A stretch of 64,000 nt of DNA. It comes from an uncultured Bacteroides sp. (GTDB taxonomy: Bacteria; Bacteroidota; Bacteroidia; Bacteroidales; Bacteroidaceae). Below are positions 7,949 to 63,518 of this stretch, piece by piece. The stretch's first letter is position 1. Each line of letters starts with the position of its first letter. Location of the stretch: contig USEY01000005.1 in assembly GCA_900553815.1 (NCBI GenBank), forward strand, positions 22,290-86,289, in the 5' to 3' direction. Made by a program: the position numbers and the translations under genes. The notes under the pieces are model-generated. The model was not told the DNA's origin and made no database searches. It worked only from the letters and a program-made list of their open reading frames with translations.

Positions 7949-8035
7949 GACACATTATAATGTGTCCGATGGAGAGATTATAATGTGTCCGATGGAGAGA
8001 TTATAATGTCTCATGCAGACACATTATAATGTGTC
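7949..8035. repeat. Palindrome array A: four 18-bp units every 23 bp
   Basis: Units start at 7949, 7972, 7995 and 8018, exactly 23 bp apart. Units 1 and 4 are the perfect 18-bp palindrome GACACATTATAATGTGTC. Units 2 and 3 keep the ATTATAATGT centre with one altered arm. The linkers are 5 bp. The array lies between the HU-like gene (whose start is 7844) and the GH43 stop at 8326, and takes up much of this 480-bp gap. The rest of the gap holds the GH43 terminator and no ORF I can support. Confidence 0.9.
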
Positions 8036-8223
8036 AGTCGGGTAGTTCCGCATGTATCCTATTTGTTGGATATATTTACCATACCACGAACTTACGTATC
8101 TCTCCATCCATGTCCAAATATAGGACTTATCGGGGAGATTCCAAACGTTTCATACATGTTCTTAAACATAAAACGGGAGGGAGGTGCGCCTTCGCGCGCA
8201 TACCACATTATATTATATGAAAT

Positions 8224-8251
8224 CCGCCCGGCACATTGCTGCGCCGGGCGG
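8224..8251 (-). terminator. Probable terminator of the GH28-DUF4861-GH43 operon
   Basis: CCGCCCGG at 8224-8231 pairs with CCGGGCGG at 8244-8251, about 75 nt after the GH43 stop on the minus strand. It is followed by ATTTCATATAAT rather than a clean T-run. Confidence 0.55.
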
Positions 8252-8325
8252 GAAAGGGGACGGACGCTGCGCTGCATCGCGCATGGCAGGCGTCCCAGAA
8301 GTGAAATATAGAGGAAAAAGTGTGC

Positions 8326-10005
8326 TTATCGTGTCACGCGATACCAGTCGACGTCGACCCATCCGCCGTCGTTCGTGACGATGTGCGGGCGGGTGCAGAA
8401 GATGCCGTGTTTTGCGCCTATCCACGTGCCTTCGCGCACTTGGAAGGGTTTGCCCAGCGGGCGGAACTTGCGCCCGTCGGTGCTATAAGAGAATTGGCAC
8501 ATCACGCGCTGGTCGTGTCCTCCCTCGCTCTTGCTGAGCTTCTCGCCCGAGTCGCGGATGTCGGCGCGGAGGTAGAAGGTGCTGTCCTTGAGGGTCGTTG
8601 TTTCGTTCACCGTTTCGGGTTTTCCCTTATCGGCCTGGCGGCACTCGACTTGGGAGAGCACGAGGCCCTGTTCGCTGTTTTCTACCGTGAGGGCGGCATA
8701 GTCACGGCCGAAGACGGTGAGGCCCGTGCGCTCGCCGCGGTATTTGGACGTGGGCCGGAAGGTCATCTTGACGGTGACGGTCTGTGCGGGAGCTGTGGTC
8801 TTCTGGAGGAGCATGTTGGGCACGTCAGCGAGGTTCTTGTAGGCGTCCGTGACGGGGTAGGAGTAGAGGCGCAGGAGGCTACGGTCGCCGGCGCAGTAGG
8901 CCCACTTCTCATTGTAGTTGGCCTGCCACTGCCATTGCAGTCCGAGGGTCATGCTGTCGAACTCGTCGCTTTCCTGCGGGGTGCAGATGGGATATTCTTT
9001 GCCGACGTTGGGCTTCTTGTATGTCAGGACGGGGTCACCACAGCCGTCACCGTCATCGTCGATGCCGATGACGGGCCAGTCATCGACCCAGCGCATGGGT
9101 TGCAGGTGGACGAGGCGTCCGTATGCGCCGACGTCCTGGAAGTGGAGAAACCAGTCTTCGCCCGTCGGGGTGTCGACCCATGCTCCTTGGTGAGGGCCGT
9201 TGACGGGACTCTTGCCCTGGGCGAGCACGATGCGGTTTTCATACGGACCGTAGACGTGCTTCGAGCGTTGGACGGTCTGGAAACCGGTCGGTACGCCTCC
9301 TGCGGGGTGGAAGATGTAGTAGTAGCCGCCCCGTTTGTAGAATTTCGGTCCTTCGCACGTACCTTGCCCTTCGTGGCCGTCGAAGACGATGCGCGAGGGA
9401 GTGATGGCGCGTGAGGCGTCGGCCGAGAGTTCGCAGACGGCGATGACGCTCTTGAGCTGGGCACGGCTGCCGGCGTAGGCGTGGGCCATGTAGACGCGGC
9501 CGTCGTCGTCCCAGAGAGGGGTGGTGTCGATGATGCCGATGCCGGGCTTGACGAGGACGGGTTCTGTCCAGGGGCCGCGGGGGTCTTGGGCTTTGACCAT
9601 GAAAGCTCCTTGGTCAGGGTCGCCCCAGAAGATGTAGAACCATCCGTCGTGATGGCGTATGCAGGGGGCCCAGATGCGCTTGCCGTGCTGGGGAGCTGTG
9701 TCGCTTGTCGGGGGAACGGCCCAAGGCACGGCGGAGCCGATGATGGTCCAGTTGACGAGGTCCTTCGAGTGGAGTATCTGGAGTCCGGGGACGCAGTTGA
9801 AGCTGGAAGAGGTGAGGTAGAAGTCGTCGCCGACGCGGCATGCGTCGGGGTCGGAGTAGTCAGCGTAGAGCACGGGGTTCTTGTACGTGCCGTCGCCTTG
9901 GTCGGCGACCCAGACTTGCGAGCGGTATGGCTCGGCTTGTTGTGCCGCGAGGGGCAGTGTGAAGGCCAGCATGAGGCTGGCGAGGAGTGATGTTTTTCGT
10001 TTCAT
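8326..10005 (-). CDS. Glycoside hydrolase family 43 with C-terminal beta-sandwich
   Basis: A 559-residue exported arabinofuranosidase/xylosidase-type enzyme. I start at MKRKTSLLASL, which begins a good signal peptide (cleavage near AAQQA), and drop 28 upstream residues that lack one. The five-bladed propeller shows the three GH43 acids: YSDPDACR (base), IIDTTPLWDDDGR (pKa modulator) and TCEGPKFYKRG (acid). Residues from about 370 on (ESDEFDSMTLGLQWQWQ) form a GH43_C2/DUF1349-like concanavalin-type domain. It is the last gene of a three-gene operon with DUF4861 and GH28, which points to removal of arabinan or xylose side chains from pectin. Exact linkage not determinable. Confidence 0.9.
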   Translation of the reverse strand: MKRKTSLLASLMLAFTLPLAAQQAEPYRSQVWVADQGDGTYKNPVLYADYSDPDACRVGDDFYLTSSSFNCVPGLQILHSKDLVNWTIIGSAVPWAVPPTSDTAPQHGKRIWAPCIRHHDGWFYIFWGDPDQGAFMVKAQDPRGPWTEPVLVKPGIGIIDTTPLWDDDGRVYMAHAYAGSRAQLKSVIAVCELSADASRAITPSRIVFDGHEGQGTCEGPKFYKRGGYYYIFHPAGGVPTGFQTVQRSKHVYGPYENRIVLAQGKSPVNGPHQGAWVDTPTGEDWFLHFQDVGAYGRLVHLQPMRWVDDWPVIGIDDDGDGCGDPVLTYKKPNVGKEYPICTPQESDEFDSMTLGLQWQWQANYNEKWAYCAGDRSLLRLYSYPVTDAYKNLADVPNMLLQKTTAPAQTVTVKMTFRPTSKYRGERTGLTVFGRDYAALTVENSEQGLVLSQVECRQADKGKPETVNETTTLKDSTFYLRADIRDSGEKLSKSEGGHDQRVMCQFSYSTDGRKFRPLGKPFQVREGTWIGAKHGIFCTRPHIVTNDGGWVDVDWYRVTR

Positions 10006-10019
10006 GTTTCTCTGGTGAT

Positions 10020-11255
10020 TTAATTTTTGATGGTTACTTTGCAGGGGTGTGCCTGGCGGCTTTGCCACTCCACGAGGTGGTCGAACCACGCACGGCTGTC
10101 CTTGAATCCTTCTTCTTCCTTGGCGGCGGCGAAGGTGAAGAAGTAGGTGAGCTGCCGGTCGCGGTTGGTGTGCATTTGTATAAGGTAGTTGATGTCGTCT
10201 TCCTTCGTGAGCGTGACAAATCGTCCGGGGACGTAGATGCCCAGGCCGACGGTTTCACGCGGGTGGTTCACGGTGTCGTTCTTGTAGGCGAGGTTGCTCC
10301 CCCAGGAGCCTGCCAGCCCGTCGGCGTCAAGGAAGCCCACGTTGTCACGCTCCAGCTTCTGTATGCCGGTGGCGAATGCCTTGTGTGTGGCATCTTCTTC
10401 CTTGAAGGAGATGTCGACGCGGACGTCGCGGTGTCCGGCGTAGAGGGTGTAGCGTTGGGTCATGTTGAGCGTCGCGCCGTCGTATTGCCAGTCACGGTCG
10501 AAGAACTCGATGACTGTGCGCACGGGGCCTGAGGCCAATACGCCTGCGCTGCGTGTGGCGACGGAGTCGATGGTCTGGAGTTTGCCGTCTATCCAGCCGC
10601 GGAAGGAACCCACACCGATGCTCGTTCCGGCCCAGAGGACATCGTCACCATAGCCTGCGGCGAGTTGTTCTTTCTTCGGATAGAAGTTGGTCTCGGCGAG
10701 TTCCAGCCGTTGGTATTTCTTGCCGTAGAGGTCGATGGATTGGCGGTTGTCCATGTAGGCACGGAAGGCGACGAGTTCAGACTCGAAAGCAGGCCCGTGG
10801 TGGTACATCGCGCTGTATGACTGCTTGACGGGGACACGGCCGTCGAAGGTGATGTACTGGATGTGCGGGCACTTCTGGCTCTTGTCGTTGAGGCGCATTT
10901 GGGCGTAGGTGCGTGCCGGATAAGTCTTGGCAGACGGTGTGGGGGAGAGGACGATGCGGAAGTCTTCCTTCGCTCCGGCGGGGATGTCGGCGACGAAAGC
11001 CAGTTCGTCGGCCTGTGTGTCGCGGTTGAGGTCGTCGAGCTGGGAAGGGATTTCCTCTGTGCCTCTGTACACCGTGGCCGAACGCACTTCGAAGCTGGGC
11101 TTCAGGTCGGCCAGACGGATGACGACAGGTTCGTCTGTTTTAGCTTTGTCCCAGGTGTTTTCGACCGTGATGCTGACGGTCTTCTCTGGGGTTTGTGCCG
11201 AGGCCGCCGTCGGGGCAGCGGCCAGGGCAAACAGAAGGATAGCGATGTGTTTCAT
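10020..11255 (-). CDS. DUF4861 family protein, pectin-operon associated
   Basis: A 411-residue protein with a signal peptide (residues 1-20, ending ASAQ). The DUF4861 domain covers most of the rest: TVSITVENTWDKAKTDEPVV at the start, then the conserved blocks YMDNRQSIDLYGKK, GVGSFRGWIDGK and FFDRDWQYDGATLNMTQRY. Members are usually found beside GH28 and GH105-type genes in pectin loci. A polysaccharide-related hydrolase role is likely but not proven as far as I know. It sits 14 nt before the GH43 start and 18 nt after the GH28 stop, so it is in the same transcript. Confidence 0.85.
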   Translation of the reverse strand: MKHIAILLFALAAAPTAASAQTPEKTVSITVENTWDKAKTDEPVVIRLADLKPSFEVRSATVYRGTEEIPSQLDDLNRDTQADELAFVADIPAGAKEDFRIVLSPTPSAKTYPARTYAQMRLNDKSQKCPHIQYITFDGRVPVKQSYSAMYHHGPAFESELVAFRAYMDNRQSIDLYGKKYQRLELAETNFYPKKEQLAAGYGDDVLWAGTSIGVGSFRGWIDGKLQTIDSVATRSAGVLASGPVRTVIEFFDRDWQYDGATLNMTQRYTLYAGHRDVRVDISFKEEDATHKAFATGIQKLERDNVGFLDADGLAGSWGSNLAYKNDTVNHPRETVGLGIYVPGRFVTLTKEDDINYLIQMHTNRDRQLTYFFTFAAAKEEEGFKDSRAWFDHLVEWQSRQAHPCKVTIKN

Positions 11256-11273
11256 TGTATATCTCGTATGTGT

Positions 11274-12881
11274 TTAGTGATTGTCGAAGTTGAGCGTCTT
11301 GCCTTCTTCACCCACCTCGTCGATGGCTTGCCCGTTGATTTTGATAGTCGAGACATTGCGCAGGCTTACTGTGGGCGAAGGAGTCTTGGTTGTGATGGTC
11401 AGCCGGTCGATATTGACCCCTTTGGCATGGCTGAGGACGGCTCCTTCGGTTGCGTCGGAGATGGTGATTCCGTTCAGGTTGATATTTTCGATGGGCATTT
11501 CCGGCAGTCCGTTGAAGAAGATGGCTCGTCCGGAGCCTTTGCAGGTGACGTCGTCGATGTAGATGTTGCGGAACACGGGTGTCTCTTCGCTCACGGGAGG
11601 CACGTCGTCCTTAGCCGAGGCTCCTCCGTAGAAGAGGTCGAAGAGTATGGGTTCTCCGGGGATGTTTATCATGTTCACCTTATTTATATGTATGTTTTCC
11701 ACGATGCCGCCACGTCCGCGTGTGCTCTTGAAGCGGAGTCCGACGTCCGTGCCGAGGAAGGTGCAGTTGTCCACGAAGATGTTCTTCACACCGCCGGACA
11801 TCTCGCTGCCGACGACGAATCCTCCGTGTCCGTGCAGGACGGTGTTGTTGCGCACGATGACGTTTTGCGTCGGTATGCCGCGTTTGCGTCCTTCTTCATT
11901 TTTGCCCGATTTGATGCAGATGGCGTCGTCTCCGGCGTCGAAGGTGGAGTTGAGCACGAGGACGTTGGTGCATGATTCGATGTCAAGGGCGTCGCCGTTT
12001 TGTGAATACCAGGGGTTGGAGACGCTGATATTATTGACCGTCAGGTGTTCGCACATCATCGGGTGCAGGCACCAACTGGGGGAGTTCTTGAATGTCACGC
12101 CTTCGAGAAGCACTGTCCGGCACTCGGAGAAGCTCAGGAGCACGGGACGGAGGAAGTCGCGTATGGATTCCCATCCCGGGTGGTTGTCGGCATTGACGAT
12201 TTCACTATCGGGCACATTGAAGTCTTTTGTCACGGTGGCCCCGTCGAGTGCGCCCTGGCTGGGATACCACACGTCGCCCTTCTCGTTGGTCACGCCTCCG
12301 GATGCCAGGAGCTTCTTCCATTGTCCTTCGGTGAGTTTGCTTTTCTTCACCGGACGCCATGTGTCACCGTTGCCGTCGATGGTGCCGTGGCCGGTGATGG
12401 CGATGTTTTCCGCATTCCGTGCGAAGATGGGTGACTGGCAGCGCATCGTGCTCAGTCCTTCAAAGGATGTGGAGATGATGGGATAGAGCGAATGGTCGGC
12501 AGAGAAAAGCACCAGTGCGTTGTATTCCAAGTGCAGGTTGACATTGCTTAGAAGTTCGATTGGACCGGTCAGCCAGAGTCCGGCGGGGACGATGACCTTG
12601 CCTCCGCCTTTTTCATGCACTTGCCGGATGGCTTTGTTGATAGCTTCGGTATTGAGGGTTATGCCGTCAGGTTTGGCTCCGAAGTCGACGATTGAAACTT
12701 CATAGGCGGGAAACGCCGGTTGTCTCACTTTGTCCATCTCAAACGGAAGGTTGGCATACGTGTCTTCGCTGATGATGGAAACGGTTGCAGATTCTTGGTT
12801 GGCAGTAGGTGTGGACTGGCATGACGTAAATAAGGCCAAGCCCATGGCCATAACAAAGGCTTTAGTCAGATGTGTGTTCAT
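11274..12881 (-). CDS. Glycoside hydrolase family 28 (polygalacturonase-type) lipoprotein
   Basis: A 535-residue right-handed beta-helix enzyme that cleaves galacturonan backbones. The N-terminus is a lipoprotein signal with lipobox ALFTSC, so Cys21 should be lipidated. GH28 catalytic motifs are all visible: NGDALDIES (first Asp), FDAGDDAICIKSG (the Asp pair), GHGGFVVGSEMSGG (His) and GLRFKSTRGRGG (the RFK in place of RIK). It is the first gene of the pectin operon. A TATCTTTG element lies 38 nt upstream. The locus has no SusC/SusD of its own. Confidence 0.93.
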   Translation of the reverse strand: MNTHLTKAFVMAMGLALFTSCQSTPTANQESATVSIISEDTYANLPFEMDKVRQPAFPAYEVSIVDFGAKPDGITLNTEAINKAIRQVHEKGGGKVIVPAGLWLTGPIELLSNVNLHLEYNALVLFSADHSLYPIISTSFEGLSTMRCQSPIFARNAENIAITGHGTIDGNGDTWRPVKKSKLTEGQWKKLLASGGVTNEKGDVWYPSQGALDGATVTKDFNVPDSEIVNADNHPGWESIRDFLRPVLLSFSECRTVLLEGVTFKNSPSWCLHPMMCEHLTVNNISVSNPWYSQNGDALDIESCTNVLVLNSTFDAGDDAICIKSGKNEEGRKRGIPTQNVIVRNNTVLHGHGGFVVGSEMSGGVKNIFVDNCTFLGTDVGLRFKSTRGRGGIVENIHINKVNMINIPGEPILFDLFYGGASAKDDVPPVSEETPVFRNIYIDDVTCKGSGRAIFFNGLPEMPIENINLNGITISDATEGAVLSHAKGVNIDRLTITTKTPSPTVSLRNVSTIKINGQAIDEVGEEGKTLNFDNH

Positions 12882-23533: not shown

Positions 23534-23698
23534 ACGTTTTTCTGTTACTAAACAGAGAAAAGGCTGATTTATTTATAGCGAGACTGCCAAATGCTCCTTC
23601 CCAACCAAGTGCGGCACATTCAGCTGCCGGGAAAGGCATATACGTTCCCAATAGAATTGAGACTGCAGTAGCACTATACTGATGCCTATTGTGCGAAC

Positions 23699-23819
23699 GC
23701 GCAACAGACAAATGCACGGGCGCGCAACAGACAAATGCACGGACGCGCAACAGACAAATGCACGGGCGCGCAACAGACAAATGCACGGGCGCGCAACAGG
23801 TAAATGCGCGAACGCGCAT
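23699..23819. repeat. Repeat array B: five 23-bp direct repeats
   Basis: Units GCGCAACAGACAAATGCACG plus three variable bases start at 23699, 23722, 23745, 23768 and 23791, exactly 23 bp apart. Partial units lie on both sides (GTGCGAAC before, GCGCAT after). Neighbouring units meet in short inverted repeats such as TGCGCG-AA-CGCGCA. The array sits in the 640-bp gap between the divergent SDR and MaoC genes. The rest of the gap holds promoters and no gene I can support. Confidence 0.93.
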
Positions 23820-25576: not shown

Positions 25577-25726
25577 GTCCGTTATCGGACAAATGTCCGC
25601 TTTTGGCGGACACCAGACACAGGTTTCGGCCCGACAACGCACACATTGGCGGTACAAAGCGGTACAAACAGGCACCAAACAATACAGGCTGCCTGTATAT
25701 ACCATACAAGCAGCCTGTACACAGCA
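25577..25726. repeat. Palindrome cluster C
   Basis: Several short inverted repeats in the 424-bp gap between DUF3836 and the ABC-F gene: GTCCG-TTAT-CGGAC (25577-25590), GTCCGC-N5-GCGGAC (25595-25611), then two adjacent 22-bp units that start TACA at 25683 and 25705 and contain GGCTGCCTGTA and AGCAGCCTGTA. The last pair keeps the 22-bp period seen in other arrays; the first part does not. No gene is supported in this gap. Confidence 0.6.
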
Positions 25727-27470: not shown

Positions 27471-27478
27471 CAAAGATA
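27471..27478 (-). promoter_or_regulatory. -7 promoter element of the ABC-F gene
   Basis: The minus strand reads TATCTTTG, 41 nt before the ATG. Its upstream side overlaps the first copy of a 41-bp repeat. Confidence 0.55.
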
Positions 27479-27479
27479 C

Positions 27480-27520
27480 GGCAAATATATCATAATTCGC
27501 TGCCAATCTGACATAAAAGT
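27480..27520 (+). repeat. 41-bp direct repeat, copy 1 (ABC-F promoter side)
   Basis: Matches 27894-27934 at 39 of 41 positions. Contains TGCCA-ATC-TGACA, two palindromic TGNCA pentamers spaced by 3 bp. Confidence 0.85.
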
Positions 27521-27663: not shown

Positions 27664-27773
27664 GATAGTAGTACACTCCTCTCATGATAGCAGTTAACTC
27701 CCAACGCGATAGCAGTACACTCCTTACACGATAGCAGTACACTCCCAACACGATAGCAGTTAACTACTATCAC
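27664..27773. repeat. Palindrome array D: five 22-bp units
   Basis: Units starting GATAG at 27664, 27686, 27708, 27730 and 27752, exactly 22 bp apart. The core alternates between AGTTAACT and AGTACACT. The last unit, with GATAG-CAGTTAACTA-CTATC, is an almost perfect 20-bp palindrome. It lies in the 606-bp gap between the divergent ABC-F and grpE genes. Confidence 0.92.
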
Positions 27774-27893
27774 GCACCCCCTCAGCGCCCCTCAGAAGGC
27801 CTGCTTATTCAACCTCTGCCTCAAACGCCTTATCAAGGCGATTTGCCCAGAATGACAATACCCCCAAAAAGGATGGCCTAACCACCAGAATAT

Positions 27894-27934
27894 GGCAAAT
27901 ATATCATAAATCACTGCCAATCTGACATAAAAGT
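27894..27934 (+). repeat. 41-bp direct repeat, copy 2 (grpE promoter side)
   Basis: Second copy of the 27480-27520 element. The TGCCA-ATC-TGACA motif ends 9 bp before the grpE -7 element. Confidence 0.85.
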
Positions 27935-31448: not shown

Positions 31449-31472
31449 AAACCTGAAATTAAACGTCTGATA

Positions 31473-34216: not shown

Positions 34217-34251
34217 TGGTATATACATGTTTTATTGATTAATACTTGTTT

Positions 34252-35667: not shown

Positions 35668-35734
35668 ATCTTCCTTTCCTTTTTACATACTCATTTACAC
35701 GGTTCTTTCATCTTAAGAGTAAAGTTTCAGATTG

Positions 35735-35861
35735 GTTTCATTGGATGAAACCGGTAGTTTCAACGGATGAAACCATTAGTTTCAACGGACGAAACCAGTA
35801 GTTTCAACGGATGAAACCGTTAGTTTCAGCAGATGAAACCATCAGTTTCAACGAATGAAAC
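35735..35861. repeat. Palindrome array E: six 17-bp units every 22 bp
   Basis: GTTTCA-N5-TGAAAC units start at 35735, 35757, 35779, 35801, 35823 and 35845, exactly 22 bp apart (one arm altered in units 3 and 6). The 5-bp centres and the 5-bp linkers vary, and the 6-bp arms are kept. It fills part of the 319-bp gap between the fusion gene and the esterase. No promoter consensus or ORF is seen in the rest of the gap. Confidence 0.95.
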
Positions 35862-35986
35862 TAAATTGCCCTGACTGAGTTTTCTGATAAACATTCCTGC
35901 CTGTTTGTGAGAACAAACTGCTGACAAATGCCGGATACCACAATTTAAACGAAAGGGCCGTATACTCATATAGAAATCTTTTCCTC

Positions 35987-38620: not shown

Positions 38621-38639
38621 AATATCATTATATATAAAA

Positions 38640-38686
38640 GAAGCTGTCCTTTCAACTAAAGGAAATGCAAGAGACAGCTTCTTTTT
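38640..38686 (-). terminator. Intra-operon hairpin upstream of the fusion gene
   Basis: On the minus strand GAAGCTGTC pairs with GACAGCTTC and is followed by TTTTATATATAA, about 20 nt before the fusion-gene ATG. It probably lowers transcription into the distal enzymes. Confidence 0.75.
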
Positions 38687-38726
38687 GATTAAGTAGGGGG
38701 ATGTGTTAAGTTTTAAATTAATCAAT

Positions 38727-40133: not shown

Positions 40134-40170
40134 CGCAAATAATTATTTTCCAAATAGTTCGCCATTCATT

Positions 40171-40206
40171 AAAAATCCAGGAGACCCAGCTTCCCGAGCC
40201 TCCTGG
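40171..40206 (-). terminator. Intra-operon hairpin after the SusCD-DUF5018 group
   Basis: On the minus strand CCAGGAG pairs with CTCCTGG and is followed by ATTTTTAAT. It lies between the DUF5018 stop and the second GHL10 start, a usual place for an attenuator after SusC/SusD. Confidence 0.8.
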
Positions 40207-40225
40207 AAACTCTTAATTTACCAAA

Positions 40226-41914: not shown

Positions 41915-41985
41915 AATCATTGTTTTTTTTAGATTTGATGAATATCCATTACCATCTAAAGTGATATGTATATCCATTCTGCTTG

Positions 41986-43653
41986 TTATTTCCACTCTGG
42001 ATATTGGGTAACAGCACTATTGTTATCCAACTCTGATTGTGGCAACGGGCAACGATACATCTTTTCCGGGAAATTACGGTCTTTATCGTCACAAGATACA
42101 TAAGTGTACTTCAGGTCACCGCTAGGTTGTTTCTCAATCTTCAAACCATGAACCTGATAACCATTCAAACCTCCTTCTTCGTATGATTTTGCTGCCACAT
42201 TCCAACGACGCAAATCCCAATACCATTGTCCTTCATAAGCCAATTCCACCTTACGTTCCTGAACAATAGCTTTCCAAAGGTTATCGCCACTCTTGTCTGA
42301 ATAAGAAAGACCTACACGAGCACGCAAAGCTTTGATTGCTTCATTGGCACCAGCATTATCGTTTGTTTGATAGCAGGCCTCAGCATAATTCAACAAAACT
42401 TCAGCAAAGCGGATAACAGTCCAAGGTTGCGTACTAACGGCAAGCTCAGAAAGATTATGATTTTCATCAACCAACTTACGCAAATAATACCCCGTAGTAC
42501 TTCTGCCTTCGGGAGTTTTATCTTTATTCCACTGGCACCAACCGTCTACGCCGTCAACAAAAGTCTCGATAGTACGACCTTTCCACTGAGCACCATTATA
42601 AAGAATGGTAGCTTGGAAACGGGGTTCCAGTTTGTCGTAAGGAGGAGTATCTGTAACACCTTCAGTGCTATGCCAAGTTGACCAATCGGGGAAACCACCT
42701 TCAGCCAGTTCATAGGATTCCACCATTTCCTGAGTTGGAGTACCATATCCACCACTATTTACACCAATCAGTTTATAGTCACCACCCGGAGTATAGTAAG
42801 TATCAAAATCATGGCCTATTGTCCGGTCAAAACAATACTGCAAAATAGCTTCTTTATTACCATCCTTTATTGTTTTAGAATATGAATCTGCATAATTGCT
42901 CTCCAAAGTATACCCCAGTTTCTGAACCTCAGCAGCTGCCAATTTTACTTTATCATAACGCTTAGCATAAAGCATTGCACGAGTCAGGAAAGCATAAGCG
43001 GCACCTTTATCTATACGTCCATTGGCATTTGCCTGATCGGGCAAATGAGTGGCGGCATAATTCAAATCTTCTTCTACGAAATCCCAACCTGCCTCTTCTG
43101 TACTCAACGCTTTATCACGAGTTATCTGGGTCAGATCTTCGTTATAGATAATCACTTCCTTGTAACGCTTAAGCAAATCAAAATACAAGAAGGCACGGAT
43201 GAAACGCATTTCTGCTTCCAAACGTTCAGAATCCGCATCACTCAATGTACCAAACTTGTGCAGGTTATAAAGGTTTTCATTCGTACGACGCACATACTCA
43301 TACATAGTTGCCCAGTTGCCAAGATATGTACTAACATAAGAAGGCTGTAAAGTCGTACCACCGTAAGCTATTTCACTAGGAATAAAACAAAGGGCATTAT
43401 AATTGTAAGAACCATACTTCAACTGGTCAGTCAAAGCCTCGGTCATACCGGCAGCACACTGTCCCAAAGTAAAGTTACTTAAATTATAAAAATACTTATA
43501 TAAATCATTGACTGCATATTCCGCATTCGTAGTGGTACTCCACATGACCTTATCCGAAATACTATTAGTCGGAGTCATATCCAAGAAATCATTGCAAGAG
43601 CTCAATCCGAATGAAGCCCCCAATATACATAAACCGATTATTCTTGTTTTCAT
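41986..43653 (-). CDS. SusD/RagB-family surface glycan-binding lipoprotein
   Basis: A 555-residue SusD-like outer-membrane lipoprotein (lipobox LSSC). N-terminal NDFLDMTPTNSISDKVMW and repeated helical TPR-like pairs are typical. The C-terminal RKVELAYEGQWYWDLRRWNVA is the SusD C-terminal signature. It docks on the SusC partner and binds the substrate at the surface. It lies 14 nt after the susC stop. Confidence 0.95.
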   Translation of the reverse strand: MKTRIIGLCILGASFGLSSCNDFLDMTPTNSISDKVMWSTTTNAEYAVNDLYKYFYNLSNFTLGQCAAGMTEALTDQLKYGSYNYNALCFIPSEIAYGGTTLQPSYVSTYLGNWATMYEYVRRTNENLYNLHKFGTLSDADSERLEAEMRFIRAFLYFDLLKRYKEVIIYNEDLTQITRDKALSTEEAGWDFVEEDLNYAATHLPDQANANGRIDKGAAYAFLTRAMLYAKRYDKVKLAAAEVQKLGYTLESNYADSYSKTIKDGNKEAILQYCFDRTIGHDFDTYYTPGGDYKLIGVNSGGYGTPTQEMVESYELAEGGFPDWSTWHSTEGVTDTPPYDKLEPRFQATILYNGAQWKGRTIETFVDGVDGWCQWNKDKTPEGRSTTGYYLRKLVDENHNLSELAVSTQPWTVIRFAEVLLNYAEACYQTNDNAGANEAIKALRARVGLSYSDKSGDNLWKAIVQERKVELAYEGQWYWDLRRWNVAAKSYEEGGLNGYQVHGLKIEKQPSGDLKYTYVSCDDKDRNFPEKMYRCPLPQSELDNNSAVTQYPEWK

Positions 43654-43667
43654 AGACTATACGTTTT

Positions 43668-46600
43668 TTAGAATGTTAATGAAATACCACCCATTATAGT
43701 TCTCTGCTGCGGATAGTAACCGTTGTTCACGCCCGGTGATTCAGGGTCAATACCTTCGGGCAGACCACTAATGGTGAATAAGTTAGAGCCTTCTACAAAG
43801 ATGCGGAGATTCTGAATATTAATTTTCTGCATCCATTGACGCGGGAATGTATAACCCAACTGAGCTGATTTCAGACGAATATATTTACCATCGCGCAACC
43901 AGAAAGTAGAAGCCAAACCATTATCTCCACCGTGTCCAGGGCTACCAAGAGTTATACGTGGGAAAGTTCCATCAGGATTATCAATACTATAAGCATTTTC
44001 TACCAGATACAAAGGAGAATTAGCACCTTCTTTGAAGGTTTGTGTCCAGATTGTGTTATCATCATAACCATTGTAATATGTTCCGGTCAGAGACACATCA
44101 AACAAGGCACCACCTGTAAACTGTGCATTGAAGTCAAAGCCATTCCATGAACAGTTCAGATTCAAGCCATAAGTCAATTCAGGACGATTACTGCGACCTA
44201 CACGAGCTTTATCATCTTCTGTGATTTTTCCATCGCCATTCAGGTCTTTATACTTGATATCACCTACGTTAGGACGTGTACCATACCATGCGGAATTGGT
44301 AATCTCTTCTTCCGAACGGAACAGACCTTCAGCCACCCATGCCATTGTAGCACCATAAGGAGTGCCTGTCACTTTACGCCATTCCATGATATTAGGACTA
44401 TCGGGATATTGCAACCAACGAGTTTTAGCGTATGTAATATTGGCACTTACGCCATAGGTAAAGGGTTTGCCTCCCAACTGGAATGAATTGCGATGAGAAA
44501 CCAGAATATCTACACCTTTGCTATCAATCTTATTGTAGTTAGCATAAGTCTGATAGTAACCACCCATAGAAGGAGGATAATCACCACCCATAGCAGTCAG
44601 GATGTCATAAGTATAGTTATAGAAAGCATCAAATTCCATTCCCAACATACCATTCCACATCGTGAAATCAAAACCTGCATTCCAAGACAATGTCTTCTCC
44701 CAAGTCAAATCGGGATTGGCTATAACATTGGTATAATAAGCAGGTGACAAAACACCGTTGATAAGTACATTGGTTCCAGCAACATACTGGCTCAAGAAAG
44801 AATAAGGAGTTACAGAGTCGTTACCCAGCAAACCGACAGAAGCACGAATCTTCAAGTCGTCCAGGAAATTGAGATTATCCATAAAACTTTCTTCAGACAA
44901 ACGCCAACCTAAAGAAGCCGACGGGAAGAAACCCCACTGCTGACCTGCCATTCCATAGAACTTATAAGAACCATCGTAACGACCGGTAAACTCTGCCAAA
45001 TATTTATTGCTATAATCGTATTTCAAACGGAAAACATATCCTGCAGAACGTGATGCATCGCTTGAACCTGCCACGGGATCTTTAGTTGCAACGCCATAAT
45101 CCAACTCTGGAAGTTGAGAAAACGGCAAATTCTGAGCATAAGCAGAAAGGTTATTCGATTTATAATCGCGGCCTTCTACCAAGAACATAGCATCTACATT
45201 GTGTTTGCCAAATGAACGAAGATAATTGATGCTGGCCTGACCAACCAACTGTTCATAAGTAGACTGACCTTCACCTATATTGATACCCTGGTCTGTTCCA
45301 CGAGGATCGGACTTTATACTCCAACCACTTGCATTATCGTATACCATCGTAGAATAAGGAGTATTCAAATTCTTATTATGTGAAGTTCCGTAGTTATAAG
45401 AACCACTAATCTTCAGCGACAAGCCCTTTACCCAAGGAACATCATAGCTCAATGAAAAGTTTGTCTGCAAGTCAAGGCTACGAGTATTTTTGTATCCTGA
45501 CTCATAAATAGCAGCTAACGGGCTATTGGGCAATGAAGTATTGTTCTGCAAAGAAGCTGTGTACATTCCATTATATTGAACCGGCAAGTAAGGGTGCATC
45601 TGAATGGTCTGACGTGCAACAGACAACCAGCCTTGTTCACCCAAATAAGAATCACTATCTGTTCCACCTGAAGCATAACCCGGTGTATGACGACGGCCAA
45701 CATTACCAGCTACACCCAATGTAAAGTGGAAGTTTTTGGCAAAGTCAGACTCAATGTTAGTACGTACATTGTAACGACGATAATTGAAGTTATCAATATT
45801 ACCATCTTGTCCCAAGTAACCCAAAGAAGTGAAATAACGCATCTTTTCATTACCACCTTGTACCGTTACACTGTGTTTCTGGGTGAAACCTGTACCAAAT
45901 ACTTTATCAATATAATCTACGTTGTCCCAACCATCGGTAGGATCACCATTGGTCATGGCTTCCACATTTTCTTTTGTAAAATGAGGCACGTACTGGCTAC
46001 GGTCGGTAATAGCGCCACTGGCCAACTGGTCCATCATCTCTGCCATATTATAATAGTATGCAAACTGAGGACCATTCATGAATTTGGGGAAATTGGCATT
46101 CATAGAAGCACCAAAAGATGCATCATAAGTCACTTTAGTCTTACCGGCTTCACCCTTTTTGGTAGTTACGATGATAACACCACCGGCACCCTTCAGACCA
46201 TATACAGCAGCCGAAGCACCATCCTTCAAAACAGATACGCTTTCAATGTCGTTCGGGTCAAGGTCATTGATATTGTCTACCGGGAAACCATCGACAATGT
46301 AAGCTACATTATAGATAGAACCACGAATCTTCAAAGAAGCCTGGTCCAAGCCCGGTTCTCCTGACTCTTGCACAGAAGAAATACCAGGCAACCGACCTCC
46401 CAACAACTGAGACACATTTGTAGAAGGTGCCTTCAACAATTCTTCACCCTTCATGGCTGAAACGGCACTAGTCAACGAACTTTTTTTCTGCGTTCCGTAA
46501 CCAACGACAACCACTTCATCGAGCAACTCGGTATCATCTTTCATCTGCACATTAATGACCGTACGGCCAGCCACTTTATACTCTTGCGTCTTCATGCCGA

Positions 46601-46862
46601 CAAAAGAAAAGACAACAACATCGCTGCTTTTTACATTCAACGAATACTTTCCTTCAACATCCGTAATCGTACCGTTACTGGTACCTTTCACCAACACACT
46701 CACACCTGGCAAGCCTTCTCCGGTACCATCAGATACCACTCCCTTCAAAGTTATATCCTGTGCCTGAAGGCCCAAAGGATATAATAAGAGCATCAATAAT
46801 GAGAACGAAAGCATTCTCATCCACCGAAAACTTCTTGTAGGATCTTTAATAAAGTCTCTCAT
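43668..46862 (-). CDS. SusC/RagA-family TonB-dependent transporter
   Basis: A 1064-residue outer-membrane transporter. Signal peptide residues about 17-35; then a CarboxypepD_reg-like domain (ITLKGVVSDGTGEGLPGVSVLVKG), a TonB box region (ELLDEVVVVGYGTQKKSSLT), the plug with the SusC signature segments, and a C-terminal beta-barrel ending in Phe (SLTF). It imports the oligosaccharide made by the surface enzymes. It starts 36 nt after the epimerase stop and is probably in the same transcript. Confidence 0.97.
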   Translation of the reverse strand: MRDFIKDPTRSFRWMRMLSFSLLMLLLYPLGLQAQDITLKGVVSDGTGEGLPGVSVLVKGTSNGTITDVEGKYSLNVKSSDVVVFSFVGMKTQEYKVAGRTVINVQMKDDTELLDEVVVVGYGTQKKSSLTSAVSAMKGEELLKAPSTNVSQLLGGRLPGISSVQESGEPGLDQASLKIRGSIYNVAYIVDGFPVDNINDLDPNDIESVSVLKDGASAAVYGLKGAGGVIIVTTKKGEAGKTKVTYDASFGASMNANFPKFMNGPQFAYYYNMAEMMDQLASGAITDRSQYVPHFTKENVEAMTNGDPTDGWDNVDYIDKVFGTGFTQKHSVTVQGGNEKMRYFTSLGYLGQDGNIDNFNYRRYNVRTNIESDFAKNFHFTLGVAGNVGRRHTPGYASGGTDSDSYLGEQGWLSVARQTIQMHPYLPVQYNGMYTASLQNNTSLPNSPLAAIYESGYKNTRSLDLQTNFSLSYDVPWVKGLSLKISGSYNYGTSHNKNLNTPYSTMVYDNASGWSIKSDPRGTDQGINIGEGQSTYEQLVGQASINYLRSFGKHNVDAMFLVEGRDYKSNNLSAYAQNLPFSQLPELDYGVATKDPVAGSSDASRSAGYVFRLKYDYSNKYLAEFTGRYDGSYKFYGMAGQQWGFFPSASLGWRLSEESFMDNLNFLDDLKIRASVGLLGNDSVTPYSFLSQYVAGTNVLINGVLSPAYYTNVIANPDLTWEKTLSWNAGFDFTMWNGMLGMEFDAFYNYTYDILTAMGGDYPPSMGGYYQTYANYNKIDSKGVDILVSHRNSFQLGGKPFTYGVSANITYAKTRWLQYPDSPNIMEWRKVTGTPYGATMAWVAEGLFRSEEEITNSAWYGTRPNVGDIKYKDLNGDGKITEDDKARVGRSNRPELTYGLNLNCSWNGFDFNAQFTGGALFDVSLTGTYYNGYDDNTIWTQTFKEGANSPLYLVENAYSIDNPDGTFPRITLGSPGHGGDNGLASTFWLRDGKYIRLKSAQLGYTFPRQWMQKINIQNLRIFVEGSNLFTISGLPEGIDPESPGVNNGYYPQQRTIMGGISLTF

Positions 46863-46897
46863 AAGTTCGATTTTTTAAATTAATAATATTTATTTGG

Positions 46898-48073
46898 CTA
46901 ACACTTTTCACTTAATTCATTCAACACCTTCCAACACTGATACAGTCCGCGAGGAACATGGAAGCAGCCTTTCCACTTGCCACCCTTCAAAGGTAACAGC
47001 ACCTCACCGCGACGGTTCAGATAGCCATACCATTCGGGATATTCCTGGTCTTTGAAGTGAGACCATACATAATCGTGTACCTTCTCAAACCATTCCAGAC
47101 ATTGCCGGTCGCCCGTCAGACGATAGCCCTTCAGCAACGAAATCAAGGTTTCGATATGAACCCACCAAAGTTTCTGGTCCCATTCCAGCTGCTGGGGAGG
47201 ATTGCCCAGACGGTCCATGAAGTAGTAGATGCCACCGTACTGCTTGTCCCAACCATAGTTGAGCATGGTCAGTGTAATGTTCTTGGCTTTCTCTATCAGG
47301 TCCGGACGATTAAGGCGCTTACCCAAGTCCATAATGAACCACATGGCCTCGATGGCATGACCAGGAGTAACCTGGCGACCTTCGAAGGAGTCGGACAATG
47401 AACCGTCTGCCAGCACATTCTCTACAATAATACCACCTAACTCAGGACGATAGAATACATCCATCACTTCGTGGATGCAGGTATCCATGGTCTTCACCAG
47501 GAAATCTTCGTCGAGCAAGTGCTCTATTTCCAATGCCAGGTTGCAAAGAATCATAGGAAGGGCAAAGCCTTTCAAGTCGCGTGTGCCGGGATGGAGTTTG
47601 TTCCATTTGCCTTTCGGATTGTTCACCTTCGACAGTACGATGTCGAAAGTCTTCTTGGCAATATCAGCATATTCCTGATTGCCCGTGGCCAGACTCAACT
47701 GTCCGAAAGCCATCGTAGCAAACGTGTAAGAGAAGATGTTGTAAGGTTCTACCAACGGGTGTCCTTCGCGGTCGAGCGAGAAATACCAGTTGTAGTTGCC
47801 ATCATGACCGTACTTTTTCAGGAACTCACCGCCTTGAATGGCACAGTCGAGCCACTCCTGGCGTTTCTCTACCTTGTTGTAGAGCATGGCAAACATCCAG
47901 ACTTCGCGGCCTTGCAACCAGATAAACTTATCTGTATCGAACACTTCGCCATTGCGTTTCAGGCAAGTGAAATAGCCACCAAACTCCTTATCCTGGGAAT
48001 GCTGCAACCAGAAAGGAAGCACATTCTCCATAAGCTCTGCTTTGTACTGTTCAGCTAATTTCTTGAAATCCAT
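46898..48073 (-). CDS. N-acylglucosamine 2-epimerase (AGE/RnBP family)
   Basis: A 391-residue cytoplasmic (alpha/alpha)6-barrel epimerase. I start at MDFKKLAEQYK, as in Bacteroides GlcNAc 2-epimerases. Family blocks are KEFGGYFTCLKRNGEVFDTDKFIWLQGREVWMFA, VEPYNIFSYTFATMAFGQLS, TPGHAIEAMWF (catalytic-site His region) and HVPRGLYQCWKVLN. It converts GlcNAc to ManNAc (family knowledge), a step in sialic-acid or amino-sugar use; a cellobiose-epimerase role is possible but less likely. It lies 24 nt after the transporter stop. Confidence 0.88.
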   Translation of the reverse strand: MDFKKLAEQYKAELMENVLPFWLQHSQDKEFGGYFTCLKRNGEVFDTDKFIWLQGREVWMFAMLYNKVEKRQEWLDCAIQGGEFLKKYGHDGNYNWYFSLDREGHPLVEPYNIFSYTFATMAFGQLSLATGNQEYADIAKKTFDIVLSKVNNPKGKWNKLHPGTRDLKGFALPMILCNLALEIEHLLDEDFLVKTMDTCIHEVMDVFYRPELGGIIVENVLADGSLSDSFEGRQVTPGHAIEAMWFIMDLGKRLNRPDLIEKAKNITLTMLNYGWDKQYGGIYYFMDRLGNPPQQLEWDQKLWWVHIETLISLLKGYRLTGDRQCLEWFEKVHDYVWSHFKDQEYPEWYGYLNRRGEVLLPLKGGKWKGCFHVPRGLYQCWKVLNELSEKC

Positions 48074-48096
48074 AATTATATATTTTATTAGGTCGA

Positions 48097-49497
48097 TTAT
48101 TTTTTCATCCAATAACGTTCTATTTCTTCAAGCGACTTGCCGGTAGTCTCGGGTATCAGTTTCCATACAATCAGCATGTAAGGCACACACATGAGGGCAA
48201 ACAGCAAGAATGTTCCGGCGGGGGTAAGATTTTGGAGCATCCAAGGAGTGAGCTGTCCTACCAGATAAGTGCCAACCCAAAGGGCGAAGCCGGCAATGGA
48301 CATGGCCATACCGCGAATGCGAGTGGGATACATCTCGGACAACAGGACAAAGATGACCGCCGAAATGGATATGGCACAACAGAATACATAAAACAAGAAG
48401 AAGAACAGCAGGAAGCTGTTGGGCAAACCCAGCGAAGCCGAGAAGCGGAAATAGAAACCTATCAGCAACAACGAAAGCACCATGCCCGATACACCATAGT
48501 AAACAAGCTTCTTGCGTCCTACCTTATCAATGATGAAGACGGCAATCACCGTCGTCACGGCATTGACCAAGCCCACCAACACCTGGCTGAACAAGGCATC
48601 GCCACCCGAAAGGCCGGCTTCTTCAAAGATAGAAGGGCCATAGTAGAGCACGGCATTCACACCCATAAACTGCCCCAAAATGGCTATGGCAGCACCAATC
48701 AGCACAGCCTTGAAAATGCCTGGCTGCAGAAGGAATTTCCAATCGGATTTAGTCTCAGACTGAACCACCGACTTCGTTTCATCCAACTGTCCCTGAGCAT
48801 CTTGAGCGGAAAGATAAATCCGCTGAAAGACTCCGAGGGCACGTTCGTCGTACTTTCTGAGAACAAGCCAACGTGGACTTTCGGGAATAAAAAGTACCAC
48901 CACGAAGAACAGCAGGGAAGGAATACCAGACAATCCCAACATGCCTCGCCATACTTCAGACACGAAAATGGTGTGCATCCAGCCGTCACCCAATGCTGCA
49001 CCGCTTTGAGAGTAATGAAGAAGCTGGTAGTTGGCCAAATAAGCGCCCAAGAAACCCAGCGTCACTGCTAACTGGTAGAGGGAGACTAAACGACCGCGAT
49101 AGCGGGCAATAGAAACTTCGGATATATAAAGCGGTGAAACAATGGAAACTACACCAATACCCACGCCACCTAGGATGCGGGCAATGACAAGCTGGTCGAA
49201 GCTACCCGTGAAAGCGCAGCCAATGCCCGACACGGAAAAGAACAGAGCCGCAATCAGCATTGTCACCTTGCGCCCGTAACGGTCGCTCAACTTACCAGCA
49301 AACAACACACCAATAATAGAGCCTACCAAGGCACAACCGACAAACCAGCCGGTCTGTATCTGGTCGAGACTAAACTGTGCAGTCACCTGAGAGATAGTGC
49401 CCGAAATAACAGCTGCGTCATATCCGAACAAGAAACCACCCAAGGCAGCCACGACAGAAAGGAATATCAAATAAGAGAAATTTATGTCTGACTTCAT
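48097..49497 (-). CDS. MFS sugar porter
   Basis: A 466-residue inner-membrane sugar transporter with 12 hydrophobic segments. Sugar-porter marks are GGFLFGYDAAVISG, GKLSDRYGRKVTML, RYRGRLVSLYQL, PESPRWLVLRK (loop 6-7) and the C-terminal PETTGKSLEEIERYW. I start at MKSDINFSYLIF, which precedes the first helix; the longer frame would run into palindrome array F. It should bring the sugar freed in the periplasm into the cytoplasm, next to the epimerase. Confidence 0.92.
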   Translation of the reverse strand: MKSDINFSYLIFLSVVAALGGFLFGYDAAVISGTISQVTAQFSLDQIQTGWFVGCALVGSIIGVLFAGKLSDRYGRKVTMLIAALFFSVSGIGCAFTGSFDQLVIARILGGVGIGVVSIVSPLYISEVSIARYRGRLVSLYQLAVTLGFLGAYLANYQLLHYSQSGAALGDGWMHTIFVSEVWRGMLGLSGIPSLLFFVVVLFIPESPRWLVLRKYDERALGVFQRIYLSAQDAQGQLDETKSVVQSETKSDWKFLLQPGIFKAVLIGAAIAILGQFMGVNAVLYYGPSIFEEAGLSGGDALFSQVLVGLVNAVTTVIAVFIIDKVGRKKLVYYGVSGMVLSLLLIGFYFRFSASLGLPNSFLLFFFLFYVFCCAISISAVIFVLLSEMYPTRIRGMAMSIAGFALWVGTYLVGQLTPWMLQNLTPAGTFLLFALMCVPYMLIVWKLIPETTGKSLEEIERYWMKK

Positions 49498-49561
49498 ACC
49501 TATTAAATTTATACTGCCAACCATCGGCACATCTTGCACAAACAGTAGGAGTTTCATTTCA

Positions 49562-49671
49562 GTTTCATGGATTGAAACCATTAGTTTCATACGCTGAAAC
49601 TGTTGGTTTCATTGCTTGAAACTATCGGTTTCAGACTATGAAACCAACAGTTCCAACGACTGAGACCAACC
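49562..49671. repeat. Palindrome array F: five units every 22 bp
   Basis: GTTTCA-N5-TGAAAC units start at 49562, 49584, 49606, 49628 and 49650 (the last one altered, GTTCCA...TGAGAC), exactly 22 bp apart. Arms are the same as in arrays E and G, and centres differ. It sits in the 246-bp gap between the DUF4434 Tat protein and the MFS gene, just upstream of the MFS start. Confidence 0.95.
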
Positions 49672-49743
49672 GGAAACTGGCAAGATAAAGATGAGCGATG
49701 GCTTATTGAAAGAAAATACCTATTAACCTGTTTATATCTTATA

Positions 49744-56794: not shown

Positions 56795-56896
56795 AGTTAA
56801 CTGTTTCATTAGTTCCAGTGGACTGAAACTTTTGTTTCTGTACGCTGAAACCTTATGTTCCAACCTGCCGAAACTTTTGTTTCAGTCCACTGAAAC
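56795..56896. repeat. Palindrome array G: four GTTTC/GAAAC units at 22-23 bp, with AGTTAACT in phase
   Basis: Units start at 56812, 56834, 56857 and 56879 (spacings 22, 23, 22). The best is GTTTCAGTCCACTGAAAC at 56879-56896, with 8-bp arms. An AGTTAACT word at 56795, as in arrays D and H, lies exactly 22 bp before the AGTGGACT core of unit 1. The 546-bp gap holds the wza promoter, this array and the tRNA-Thr promoter, and no gene I can support. Confidence 0.9.
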
Positions 56897-57158
56897 TACC
56901 TTTTCAGTCTACATCCAAGCGGGTTCCCAACCACAGCGAAATAGCATCCAACCAACTCTGAAGCTTATTCCATTCAAATCCCACAAAGTCAATAGCCAGA
57001 CACAGCCCGCTTGGTTTTGACTTTTACATTCGGAAAGAGAATCCATTACAAAAATCTTATCCATACAGATGAAAGGCCCAAAACAAACGCCTTTCACCAT
57101 TTTTTCTGCTGTATTCAAAAAAAACTCATTTTTTATTTTATCAAACCAAATAAAGCAC

Positions 57159-57186: not shown

Positions 57187-57259
<73 letters not shown>

Positions 57260-60114: not shown

Positions 60115-60118
60115 AACC

Positions 60119-60700: not shown

Positions 60701-60722
60701 CTAACCTATAACAGATAGAACC

Positions 60723-62030: not shown

Positions 62031-62075
62031 AGACACTACTATTCAAAAACTGAATTATTATTACTCTATTTTTAT

Positions 62076-62117
62076 AGCAGGGAAGGCATTTTCCATAAAT
62101 GTCTTCTCTGCTTTTTA
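62076..62117 (+). terminator. Terminator of the ior-paaK operon
   Basis: AGCAG-GAAG-CATTT pairs with AAATG-CTTC-CTGCT, followed by a T-run. Confidence 0.85.
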
Positions 62118-62458: not shown

Positions 62459-62466
62459 TATCTTTG
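62459..62466 (+). promoter_or_regulatory. Promoter of the small RNA
   Basis: TATCTTTG with a TTG 20 bp upstream. No translatable frame of note lies between it and the terminator at 62659. Confidence 0.6.
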
Positions 62467-62470
62467 TTTT

Positions 62471-62702: not shown

Positions 62703-62836
62703 AAAATAAAAATAGCTCTCAAAAGAGAGTATTTAAAGGCTCAGCAGGAATATAATGGGAGATTTATAAGAGTAACAAAAAATCCAAGTAGTCTAGAAAA
62801 CTGATGAGCATAACCTAATCTCAATCACTTGATAAC

Positions 62837-62910
62837 AATGGACTACTAACATGAAAGCAGTTAACTGCTAAGACGAAAGTAGTGGACTACTAACAAACAG
62901 GGAGTCCACT
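62837..62910. repeat. Palindrome array H: four 8-bp words every 22 bp
   Basis: AATGGACT, AGTTAACT, AGTGGACT and AGTCCACT start at 62837, 62859, 62881 and 62903, exactly 22 bp apart. The words are the same as in arrays D and G. Confidence 0.85.
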
Positions 62911-62925
62911 ACCATCATTTACACT

Positions 62926-62998
62926 TACGGCTGCATCGGCTTACGAATACGGCAGCGTTAACCAACGAATACGGCTGTGTAAGCCTACGCAGCCGTAT
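62926..62998. repeat. Palindrome array I: TACGGC(T/A)G units every 22 bp
   Basis: Units start at 62926, 62948 and 62970, each 22 bp. The last continues into a 9-bp inverted repeat, ATACGGCTG (62969-62977) and CAGCCGTAT (62990-62998). It follows array H after 16 bp and uses a different word. The 945-bp gap from 62703 to 63647 otherwise holds array J and no gene I can support. Confidence 0.85.
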
Positions 62999-63440
62999 CT
63001 GTTTCCGTAAAGTCCCTGTTTAGCTCGCCAATGTTCATGGTTAGGATTCTAAAATCCCTGTTTGTAGTGCTGAAAAAGGAAAAGAAAACGCATGAATAAA
63101 AGCCAACTACACCAACCATCGTACGAAATATTCTATTTACCATTTGAAATTTCACACCTTCACAATAAAATACAATATACTGTCATACAGATAAATACGG
63201 TGAAAGATGCACTCAAATCAATATTCAGGCTATACATACACAAATACTATCTCAGCAAGGAGAAACTGAACTTAGCAAAAAATTGAATATTGCATCTCAA
63301 TAATATGTTTCACTGTATTTAGCTGAACCACAACAAGATGCAATCATTTAAACATCATGTAGACAAAGAATATACGACACAGTACACCTCGGCAAAAATG
63401 GAACTGTAACAGAGCAAATATTTAATTACATAGCTCCTTA

Positions 63441-63518
63441 TTTCACCATAAATCACTTATTTCCAGCGTCTAATGGTGAAACTTCACCAAAACATCTATT
63501 CCATCTTTTAGTGAAACC
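63441..63518. repeat. Inverted-repeat cluster J (TTTCACC/GGTGAAA)
   Basis: TTTCACCAT (63441-63449) and ATGGTGAAA (63473-63481) form a 9-bp inverted repeat. GGTGAA-AC-TTCACC (63475-63488) is a palindrome, and a GTGAAACC lies at 63511-63518. The 22-bp period is not clear here, so it may be only a relative of the other arrays. Confidence 0.6.

Follow-up and report, generated by a model that had tools for sequence, protein, structure and literature searches.

What are the short palindromes that recur every 22 or 23 bp between the genes of an uncultured Bacteroides sp., and what holds their spacing constant? The question arises from a 64,000-nucleotide stretch of its DNA (contig USEY01000005.1, positions 22,290 to 86,289; hereafter the window), in which several intergenic gaps contain such palindromes in tandem. 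The arrays have a common period, an alternation of half-sites at 11 bp and an intergenic position, and single-unit changes separate the arrays of three ortholog pairs. In Bacteroides cellulosilyticus, they also display linkers of fixed length and free sequence, a common vocabulary of words and a common order. The explanation that we put forward, and to which we give about an even chance, is that the arrays consist of dispersed intergenic binding sites under selection, on which one or more dimeric sequence-specific DNA-binding proteins are stacked side by side. Stacked dimers are proposed because the linkers vary freely in sequence while keeping one length, the sites lie on one face of the helix and two words can occupy one register.

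Genes and intergenic gaps of the window were defined with gene calls by an in-house script, and the sequence was scanned for self-matches at lags of 6-60 in 44-base windows with at least 62% match, and in a stricter version at least 68%. Self-matches were confined to lags 22, 23, 44, 45 and 46. Regions of lag 23 were located at 7.92-8.05 and 23.67-23.83 kb, and regions of lag 22 at 27.65-27.79, 35.72-35.87, 49.56-49.67, 56.79-56.92 and 62.82-63.01 kb. The 28 intergenic stretches (9,725 bp) thus hold five regions at lag 22 and two at lag 23, against none at either lag in 200 dinucleotide-preserving shuffles of the same stretches. This enrichment over shuffled intergenic DNA bears out an earlier note on the window, which had read short inverted-repeat words at a 22/23-bp period in its gaps and whose words for each locus are present in the sequence. 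Under the stricter threshold all six merged regions were intergenic; the 56.8-kb array, flanked by a gene end at 56,640 and a tRNA-Thr at 57,187, falls below this cut-off. Counting a two-unit array at 25,682-25,720 and two arrays at 62.8-63.0 kb, the former recognized and the latter separated by reading and not by the scan, the window contains nine arrays in eight intergenic gaps, where at least nine gaps had been claimed. The last array ends at about 63.0 kb and none was found in the window beyond it, so that the previously given end point of 63,518 lies too far.

The words vary from locus to locus. The first array (7949..8035) has four 23-bp units, the end units being GACACATTATAATGTGTC, an 18-bp palindrome with a 5-bp linker, and its consensus is palindromic (p=0.005). 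The second (23698..23818) comprises about five weakly palindromic 23-bp units (CGCGCA ... TGCGCG; p=0.072), and the two-unit array (25682..25720), under the scan threshold and seen by eye, consists of the 17-bp palindrome ATACAGGCTGCCTGTAT and a diverged second copy 22 bp further. All the others have a 22-bp period. Five units of the word GATAGYAGTNNACT, with inverted ends (GATAGTAGT ... ACTACTATC), make up the array at 27664..27774 (p=0.017). GTTTCA-N5-TGAAAC provides twelve half-sites, with 5-bp linkers, at 35735..35861 and ten at 49562..49666, and nine GTTTC/GAAAC half-sites stand at 56812..56906, between an export gene (minus strand) and the tRNA-Thr (plus strand). The last gap carries one array with the word AGTNNACT (GCAGTTAACTGC / GTAGTGGACTAC; 62840..62912, p=0.065) and another with TACGGCTG ... 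CAGCCGTA (62926..62998, p=0.032), downstream of a 6S-type RNA. Palindromicity of the unit consensus was tested in seven regions, the 56.8-kb and 25.7-kb units being left out, and exceeded that of shuffles (p<0.05) in four of them; the units short of this level were those at 23.7 kb, at 49.6 kb (p=0.41) and the first of the last gap. A separate check of five array units found four palindromic at p<0.05, the exception being the GACACCCGGGTGTC unit.

The geometry of the arrays is more constant than their words. Distances between palindrome centres in the window peaked at 11 bp (14 pairs), 22 bp (11), 33 bp (8) and 44 bp (7), with at most five pairs at the remaining multiples of 11 and at most two elsewhere between 8 and 80 bp. 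In genome G009 (G-numbers denote genomes and L-numbers loci; 820 kb), the same distances were found 64 times at 22 bp, 49 at 11 bp, 44 at 44 bp and 35 at 33 bp; other half-steps between 15 and 30 bp occurred 0-10 times each, and one composition shuffle gave two at 22 bp and 0-6 at each of the others. The unit order at 35.7 and 49.6 kb is GTTTCA-N5-TGAAAC-N5, with loop and linker both of 5 bp, and half-sites therefore switch strand every 11 bp. The half-site repeat is 22 bp and at some loci 23 bp, as in the 18+5 units at 7.9 kb. Splits of 12+10 occur besides 11+11 in the 56.8-kb array, and 12+10 or 10+12 splits occur in the window and in G009, the half-sites of the same strand staying 22 bp apart. 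Furthermore, several G009 arrays combine two unrelated words in one 22-bp register.

On this geometry, each 16-18-bp palindrome would take one dimer, with its half-sites about one helical turn (11 bp) apart and therefore both on one helical face. The next dimer would sit 22 (or 23) bp further on, about two turns away, so that dimers could stack on nearly the same face and touch, a contact that would leave the linker sequence free and constrain its length. An array of some four to seven dimers would then amount to a short nucleoprotein filament lying between transcription units, which could serve as a boundary, a roadblock or a bridging point of the chromosome. Occasional copying or insertion would spread the arrays, which would change by gaining or losing whole 22-bp units, and their words would differ among lineages, and among families of arrays within one genome, through being read by different proteins or by proteins of diverged specificity. 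The protein, its dimeric state, its stacking and its boundary role are what we infer from the arrangement of the sites. Side-by-side binding, as the earlier note had proposed, agrees with the one preferred period, the whole-unit changes and the free linkers of fixed length.

The preferred period stands out in G009, which yielded 43 regions at lag 22 and 1, 4, 3 and 3 at lags 20, 21, 23 and 24; its intergenic DNA has 42 regions at lag 22, and no other lag between 12 and 40 has more than five. Consensus palindromicity (p<0.05) was present in 33 of the 43 regions at lag 22, in none of the three at lag 23 and in 8 of 29 at lags 12-21 and 24-40, and the words of these arrays include CAAACACTTGTGTTTG, CTAAGTATAATACTTAG and GTACGGACGCGTCCGTAC. 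The commonest lag outside multiples of 22 was lag 7 (27 regions in the 820 kb), with some heptads built on CAATTGA/AATTGTC. In 200 kb of E. coli, no region was found at lags 20-24. One preferred period is left unexplained by neutral minisatellites, in which replication slippage would make the units and quasi-palindrome correction would keep them palindromic; this origin, already disfavoured, we hold to be very improbable.

Beyond G009, the distribution is uneven. The family searched was that of B. propionicigenes (G032), taken as Bacteroidaceae, in which tandem GTTTCA-N5-TGAAAC (two mismatches at most) was present in 30 of 399 genomes and 5 of 30 genera. Of 295 genomes sampled across the order, two had the pair pattern, and these belong to the same genus as B. 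propionicigenes; the 291 from other families all lacked it. With up to three mismatches, it was located at 78 places in B. cellulosilyticus (G036), 53 in B. xylanisolvens, 52 in B. faecalis, 19 in B. propionicigenes, six in another Bacteroides and two in B. fluxus, and at none in B. fragilis and three others. A reversed control pattern gave zero in the 399 genomes except six (2, 2, 7, 10 and 11 matches, and 48 in G009), and the matches in G009 fit a different array word, CAAAGT-N5-ACTTTG. In samples scanned independently of any word, with palindromicity judged by eye, B. fragilis (200 kb) had two regions at lag 22; B. xylanisolvens (200 kb) four at lag 22, three at 23 and one each at 21 and 24; G243 (100 kb) three at lag 22, three at 21 and one at 24; and G046 (40 kb) four at lag 22 and one at 21. 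G025 and G026, at 40 kb each, had none at lags 20-24. Some genomes thus show the arrays strongly and others weakly or not at all, and the expectation that many arrays would share one period is borne out in some related genomes.

How the units are related to one another is best seen in B. cellulosilyticus, where all 18 arrays listed were compared, fourteen of five sites and four of four (86 sites). The 17-mer palindrome recurs exactly in another array for 56 of the 86 sites and in its own array for eight, and three words occur in 10-11 of the 18 arrays each. Each of the 68 linkers measures exactly 5 bp, in a chaining that allowed 4-6 bp and would have been broken by larger changes. There are 14 cases of an ordered run of at least three sites common to different arrays; 300 shuffles of the sites gave 2.3 on average and never more than 8. 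For identical pairs of sites, of which there are 8, the intervening linkers differ from each other at 3.4 of 5 positions, compared with 3.1 of 5 for unrelated linkers. In ten of the arrays, 45 loops draw on 18 words, where column shuffles lead one to expect 35.6 (minimum 30 of 2000), and 38 linkers on 27 words, where 31.2 are expected (minimum 26). Two of the words, GTTTCAAGGCATGAAAC and GTTTCACACCGAGAAAC, are also present in B. faecalis. In one locus of this species (L239:2805-2906), direct 11-bp repeats (GGTAAGTGAGT-like) at lag 22 have no evident palindrome.

Site recurrence, shared runs, linker divergence and constant 5-bp linkers together indicate, from sequence comparison, that the B. 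cellulosilyticus arrays are partly copies of one another in which sites have been kept, linkers randomized and spacing held. Slippage is disfavoured because it would copy linkers along with sites and make neighbours alike, whereas here identical sites lie mostly in different arrays and the linkers are random yet always 5 bp; a simple minisatellite, with neighbours most alike and uniform divergence, is not what these arrays resemble. Near-identical adjacent units do occur in the 7.9-, 23.7- and 35.7-kb arrays of the window and in G135, as slippage would have it. The earlier note had called the pattern the opposite of a slipped-strand repeat, with conserved arms and variable centres and linkers; for B. 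cellulosilyticus that contrast stands, as does the freedom of the linkers, but the centres are drawn from a small vocabulary.

Comparison of close relatives shows how arrays change. Five orthologous gaps were compared, and in three of them both partners carry an array. At 35.7 kb, the G320 ortholog has exactly one more 22-bp unit, the gap lying inside an 18-kb block of 95.6% identity; the arrays of L001 and L215 (98.5% identity) and those of L196 and L221 (flanks 91-94% identical) likewise differ by exactly one 22-bp unit. L207 was rejected as the L221 ortholog, its flanks being unrelated, and L196 is the true one. The copy-number variation predicted for such arrays was therefore encountered as whole-unit change between close relatives, and an exact difference of one unit in all three pairs is also what a minisatellite would give. 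The block (31465-49507) looks recently exchanged because stretches on either side are only 73-92% identical to G320; its right border adjoins the 49.6-kb array.

The other two gaps bear on the main rival, a common selfish copying system. According to this account, the arrays would be selfish or passenger non-autonomous elements, akin to miniature inverted-repeat transposable elements (MITEs) or repetitive extragenic palindromes (REPs), whose copying enzyme needs tandem palindromes, with sites kept as its substrate and of no use to the cell; we regard this as rather unlikely. In the window, the segments that carry the 27.7- and 49.6-kb arrays have no counterpart in the corresponding G320 gaps and are bordered by direct repeats, one of 45 bp (27476..27520 and 27890..27934, plus strand, copies 93% alike) and one of 11 bp (ATACCTATTAA, 49496..49506 and 49716..49726, plus strand, found by reading). 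The lengths differ between the two segments, where one element would be expected to leave target duplications of a fixed length. Moreover, a search of 301 family genomes with the 27.5-27.9-kb segment returned a single match of 22 bases in one genome, so that MITE flanks common to other copies were rejected for this array, and in the alignments shown the window gaps have only array words in common with each other. In G009, many arrays are embedded in larger dispersed intergenic repeats, which favours copying, whereas in several the homology does not extend past the array and two show no homology. One such repeat, of about 540-650 bp, lies near 715085-715651 of G009:C1 (inside L135) and, apart from the query itself, occurs in 13 long copies in the 820 kb, at 79-85% identity; a palindromic array occupies its central part, and TTTGTCAAAA / TTTTGACAAA stand close to the ends. 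The ordered runs common to different B. cellulosilyticus arrays also point to copying, as do L211 and L219, non-orthologous loci of two genomes of the genus Bacteroides, which have about 52 nt of array start in common, some of it lying outside the first palindrome.

A candidate copying enzyme, the Y1 transposase (TnpA-REP, PF01797), was sought in 14 genomes. It was present in six, including the array-bearing G135, G037 and B. propionicigenes, and absent in eight, including the array-rich G009 (a complete chromosome), B. cellulosilyticus and G034; other transposases were not searched for. Three of eight loci (about 3.3 kb) around Y1 genes have a lag-22 region, none of them less than 1 kb from the gene match. 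A link between Y1 and arrays is thus possible in some genomes, given these two fractions. The regions concerned, L288:265-353 (G008), L292:164-281 (G320) and L293:179-353 (G046), lie about 1.1-1.3 kb from the Y1 genes.

Gene context bears on a third alternative, in which transcribed arrays fold into RNA-level hairpins that act as bidirectional terminators or 3'-end stabilizers; this we consider improbable. By the in-house gene calls, 48 of 50 regions of lags 21-23 in G009 are intergenic, of which 26 lie between co-directional, 12 between convergent and 10 between divergent genes, the background gaps of at least 100 bp numbering 164, 48 and 62. Stems of 6-8 bp with loops of 4-6 nt would fold, and several arrays lie 8-80 bp past stop codons, also between convergent genes; in B. 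cellulosilyticus many are about 10-80 bp from stop codons. The ten G009 regions and two of six window regions between divergent genes argue against such a role, as does the exact spacing with free linkers, for which hairpins have no need. No T-run was seen after array hairpins in 16 loci read by eye, in disagreement with an intrinsic terminator (GC-rich hairpin and T-run), and in L237 and L240 a separate hairpin with a T-run, also recognized by eye, precedes the array. In 25 arrays flanked by co-directional genes, the transcribed strand was not enriched in wobble-compatible changes; sense-strand variants numbered 17 GTTCCA and 9 TGGAAC, the reverse of the RNA expectation, and this strand-asymmetry test was negative for an RNA-hairpin function. 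A known RNA family was likewise rejected as the identity of the arrays, an Rfam scan of the window having matched just a Bacteroidales 6S-type RNA and three tRNAs.

Several results weigh against the proposal of stacked dimers. A protein that binds the arrays was not found, and the several words of one genome would demand several proteins or loose specificity. In particular, ONE kind of protein, as first suggested, is unsupported because one genome can hold several unrelated words, at times in the same array and register. The pitch is not absolute, since G135 has 23-bp units (6-bp loop) amplified beside 22-bp units of the same arrays. Its generality is also limited: 80 Bacteroidota loci around one gene (1.35 Mb) gave no peak at 22 (eight regions at lag 22, eight at 21 and nine at 24), with one of the eight lag-22 regions significantly palindromic by consensus, and two further locus sets (603 kb and 240 kb) had no spacing peak. 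The linker comparison covers its 8 pairs in one species, and the GTTTCA search pattern itself imposes part of the arm conservation, and less of the loop vocabulary and linker length. Finally, the array of L196 and L221 has changed faster than its flanks.

The 7.9-kb array lies upstream of an HU-like (HU-HIG) gene (7320-7871, minus strand). The window as a whole looks Bacteroides-like, given its Bacteroidales 6S-type RNA and its YceG, which is 69% identical to those of B. propionicigenes and B. fluxus. G+C is 0.55-0.59 in positions 1-12000 and 0.40-0.45 in 36000-64000, and G001, the closest genome in shared words, has 24% of sampled 31-letter window words, yet the best matches there of the two window proteins tested are only 57% and 42% identical, which places G001 outside the window's genus.

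Either outcome would have consequences. As protein platforms, the arrays would give Bacteroidales, which are dominant gut bacteria, a chromosome-organizing or insulating system without a named protein. If they are selfish, there is a copying system that retains site words and spacing while releasing linkers, for which we know of no precedent. Either way, single-unit length changes could be used as strain markers.

Among known systems, clustered regularly interspaced short palindromic repeats (CRISPR) have near-identical repeats of 24-48 bp and long unique spacers; the arrays differ in having sites of 17-18 bp and linkers of 5 bp, and the earlier observation that CRISPR-like spacers are absent holds. 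Plasmid iterons are tandem protein-binding direct repeats at about two helical turns, at one replication origin. The arrays resemble them in tandem sites at a two-turn pitch and differ in being palindromes at many chromosomal gaps. The chromosomal parS consensus, TGTTTCACGTGAAACA, has a GTTTCA half-site as well, but its half-sites are 8 bp apart, not 11, and stand in single sites. Furthermore, B. fragilis, in which a search for the GTTTCA pair pattern gave nothing, has parS-like sites (one mismatch), and array-rich B. cellulosilyticus has none of them; ParB/parS was rejected, as the half-site matches but these sites do not track array presence.

REPs, with their bacterial interspersed mosaic element (BIME) and REPIN forms, are described as dispersed, high-copy extragenic palindromes of 20-40 bp, often clustered in alternating orientation, mostly tagged GTAG or CGTC and served by one Y1 transposase per family; one subclass of REP-associated tyrosine transposase (RAYT) is abundant in Bacteroidetes (PMC3733652, PMC6006769). 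The arrays share with them the extragenic position and, with 43 lag-22 regions in 820 kb of G009, the high copy number. No constant GTAG/CGTC tag was seen in the arrays read by eye in the window, G009 and the other printed loci. Several array-rich genomes have no Y1 transposase, others have one, and REP/RAYT membership was rejected.

The titles and abstract openings of the literature searched yielded papers on REPs and on BrickBuilt, and nothing on Bacteroides palindrome arrays of 22-bp pitch; within these sources, no report of the general class was found. BrickBuilt, a minisatellite/MITE of Porphyromonas gingivalis, is reported as an intergenic tandem 23-nt unit with 19 elements in one strain and a strain-variable unit number; as described there, it has a single word, belongs to one species and includes a leader and a tail segment, which carry terminal inverted repeats (PMC4596501). 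The likeness lies in the order Bacteroidales, the intergenic position, the tandem palindromic unit of 22-23 bp and a unit number that varies among relatives, and some G009 arrays also sit inside longer dispersed repeats. The difference from the published description lies in the many words, mostly of 22 bp, and in several arrays without common flanks; for the window arrays, no conserved leader or tail bearing terminal inverted repeats was seen. A relation to this element, raised in the earlier note, is plausible: of the four forms into which the published unit resolves, three are more palindromic than expected by chance and the fourth is not. BrickBuilt's description as a MITE would also suit a selfish origin (PMC4596501). 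More speculatively, and with clear doubt, the arrays may represent an undescribed chromosomal element of the Bacteroidales: intergenic platforms for about five dimers at a two-turn pitch, composed from a limited set of 17-bp palindromic words, which recur genome-wide in varied order and orientation, are partly common between species, and are read by filament-forming proteins that organize or partition the chromosome. BrickBuilt would then be one relative of this element and, in the sources consulted, is the nearest described relative of the arrays.

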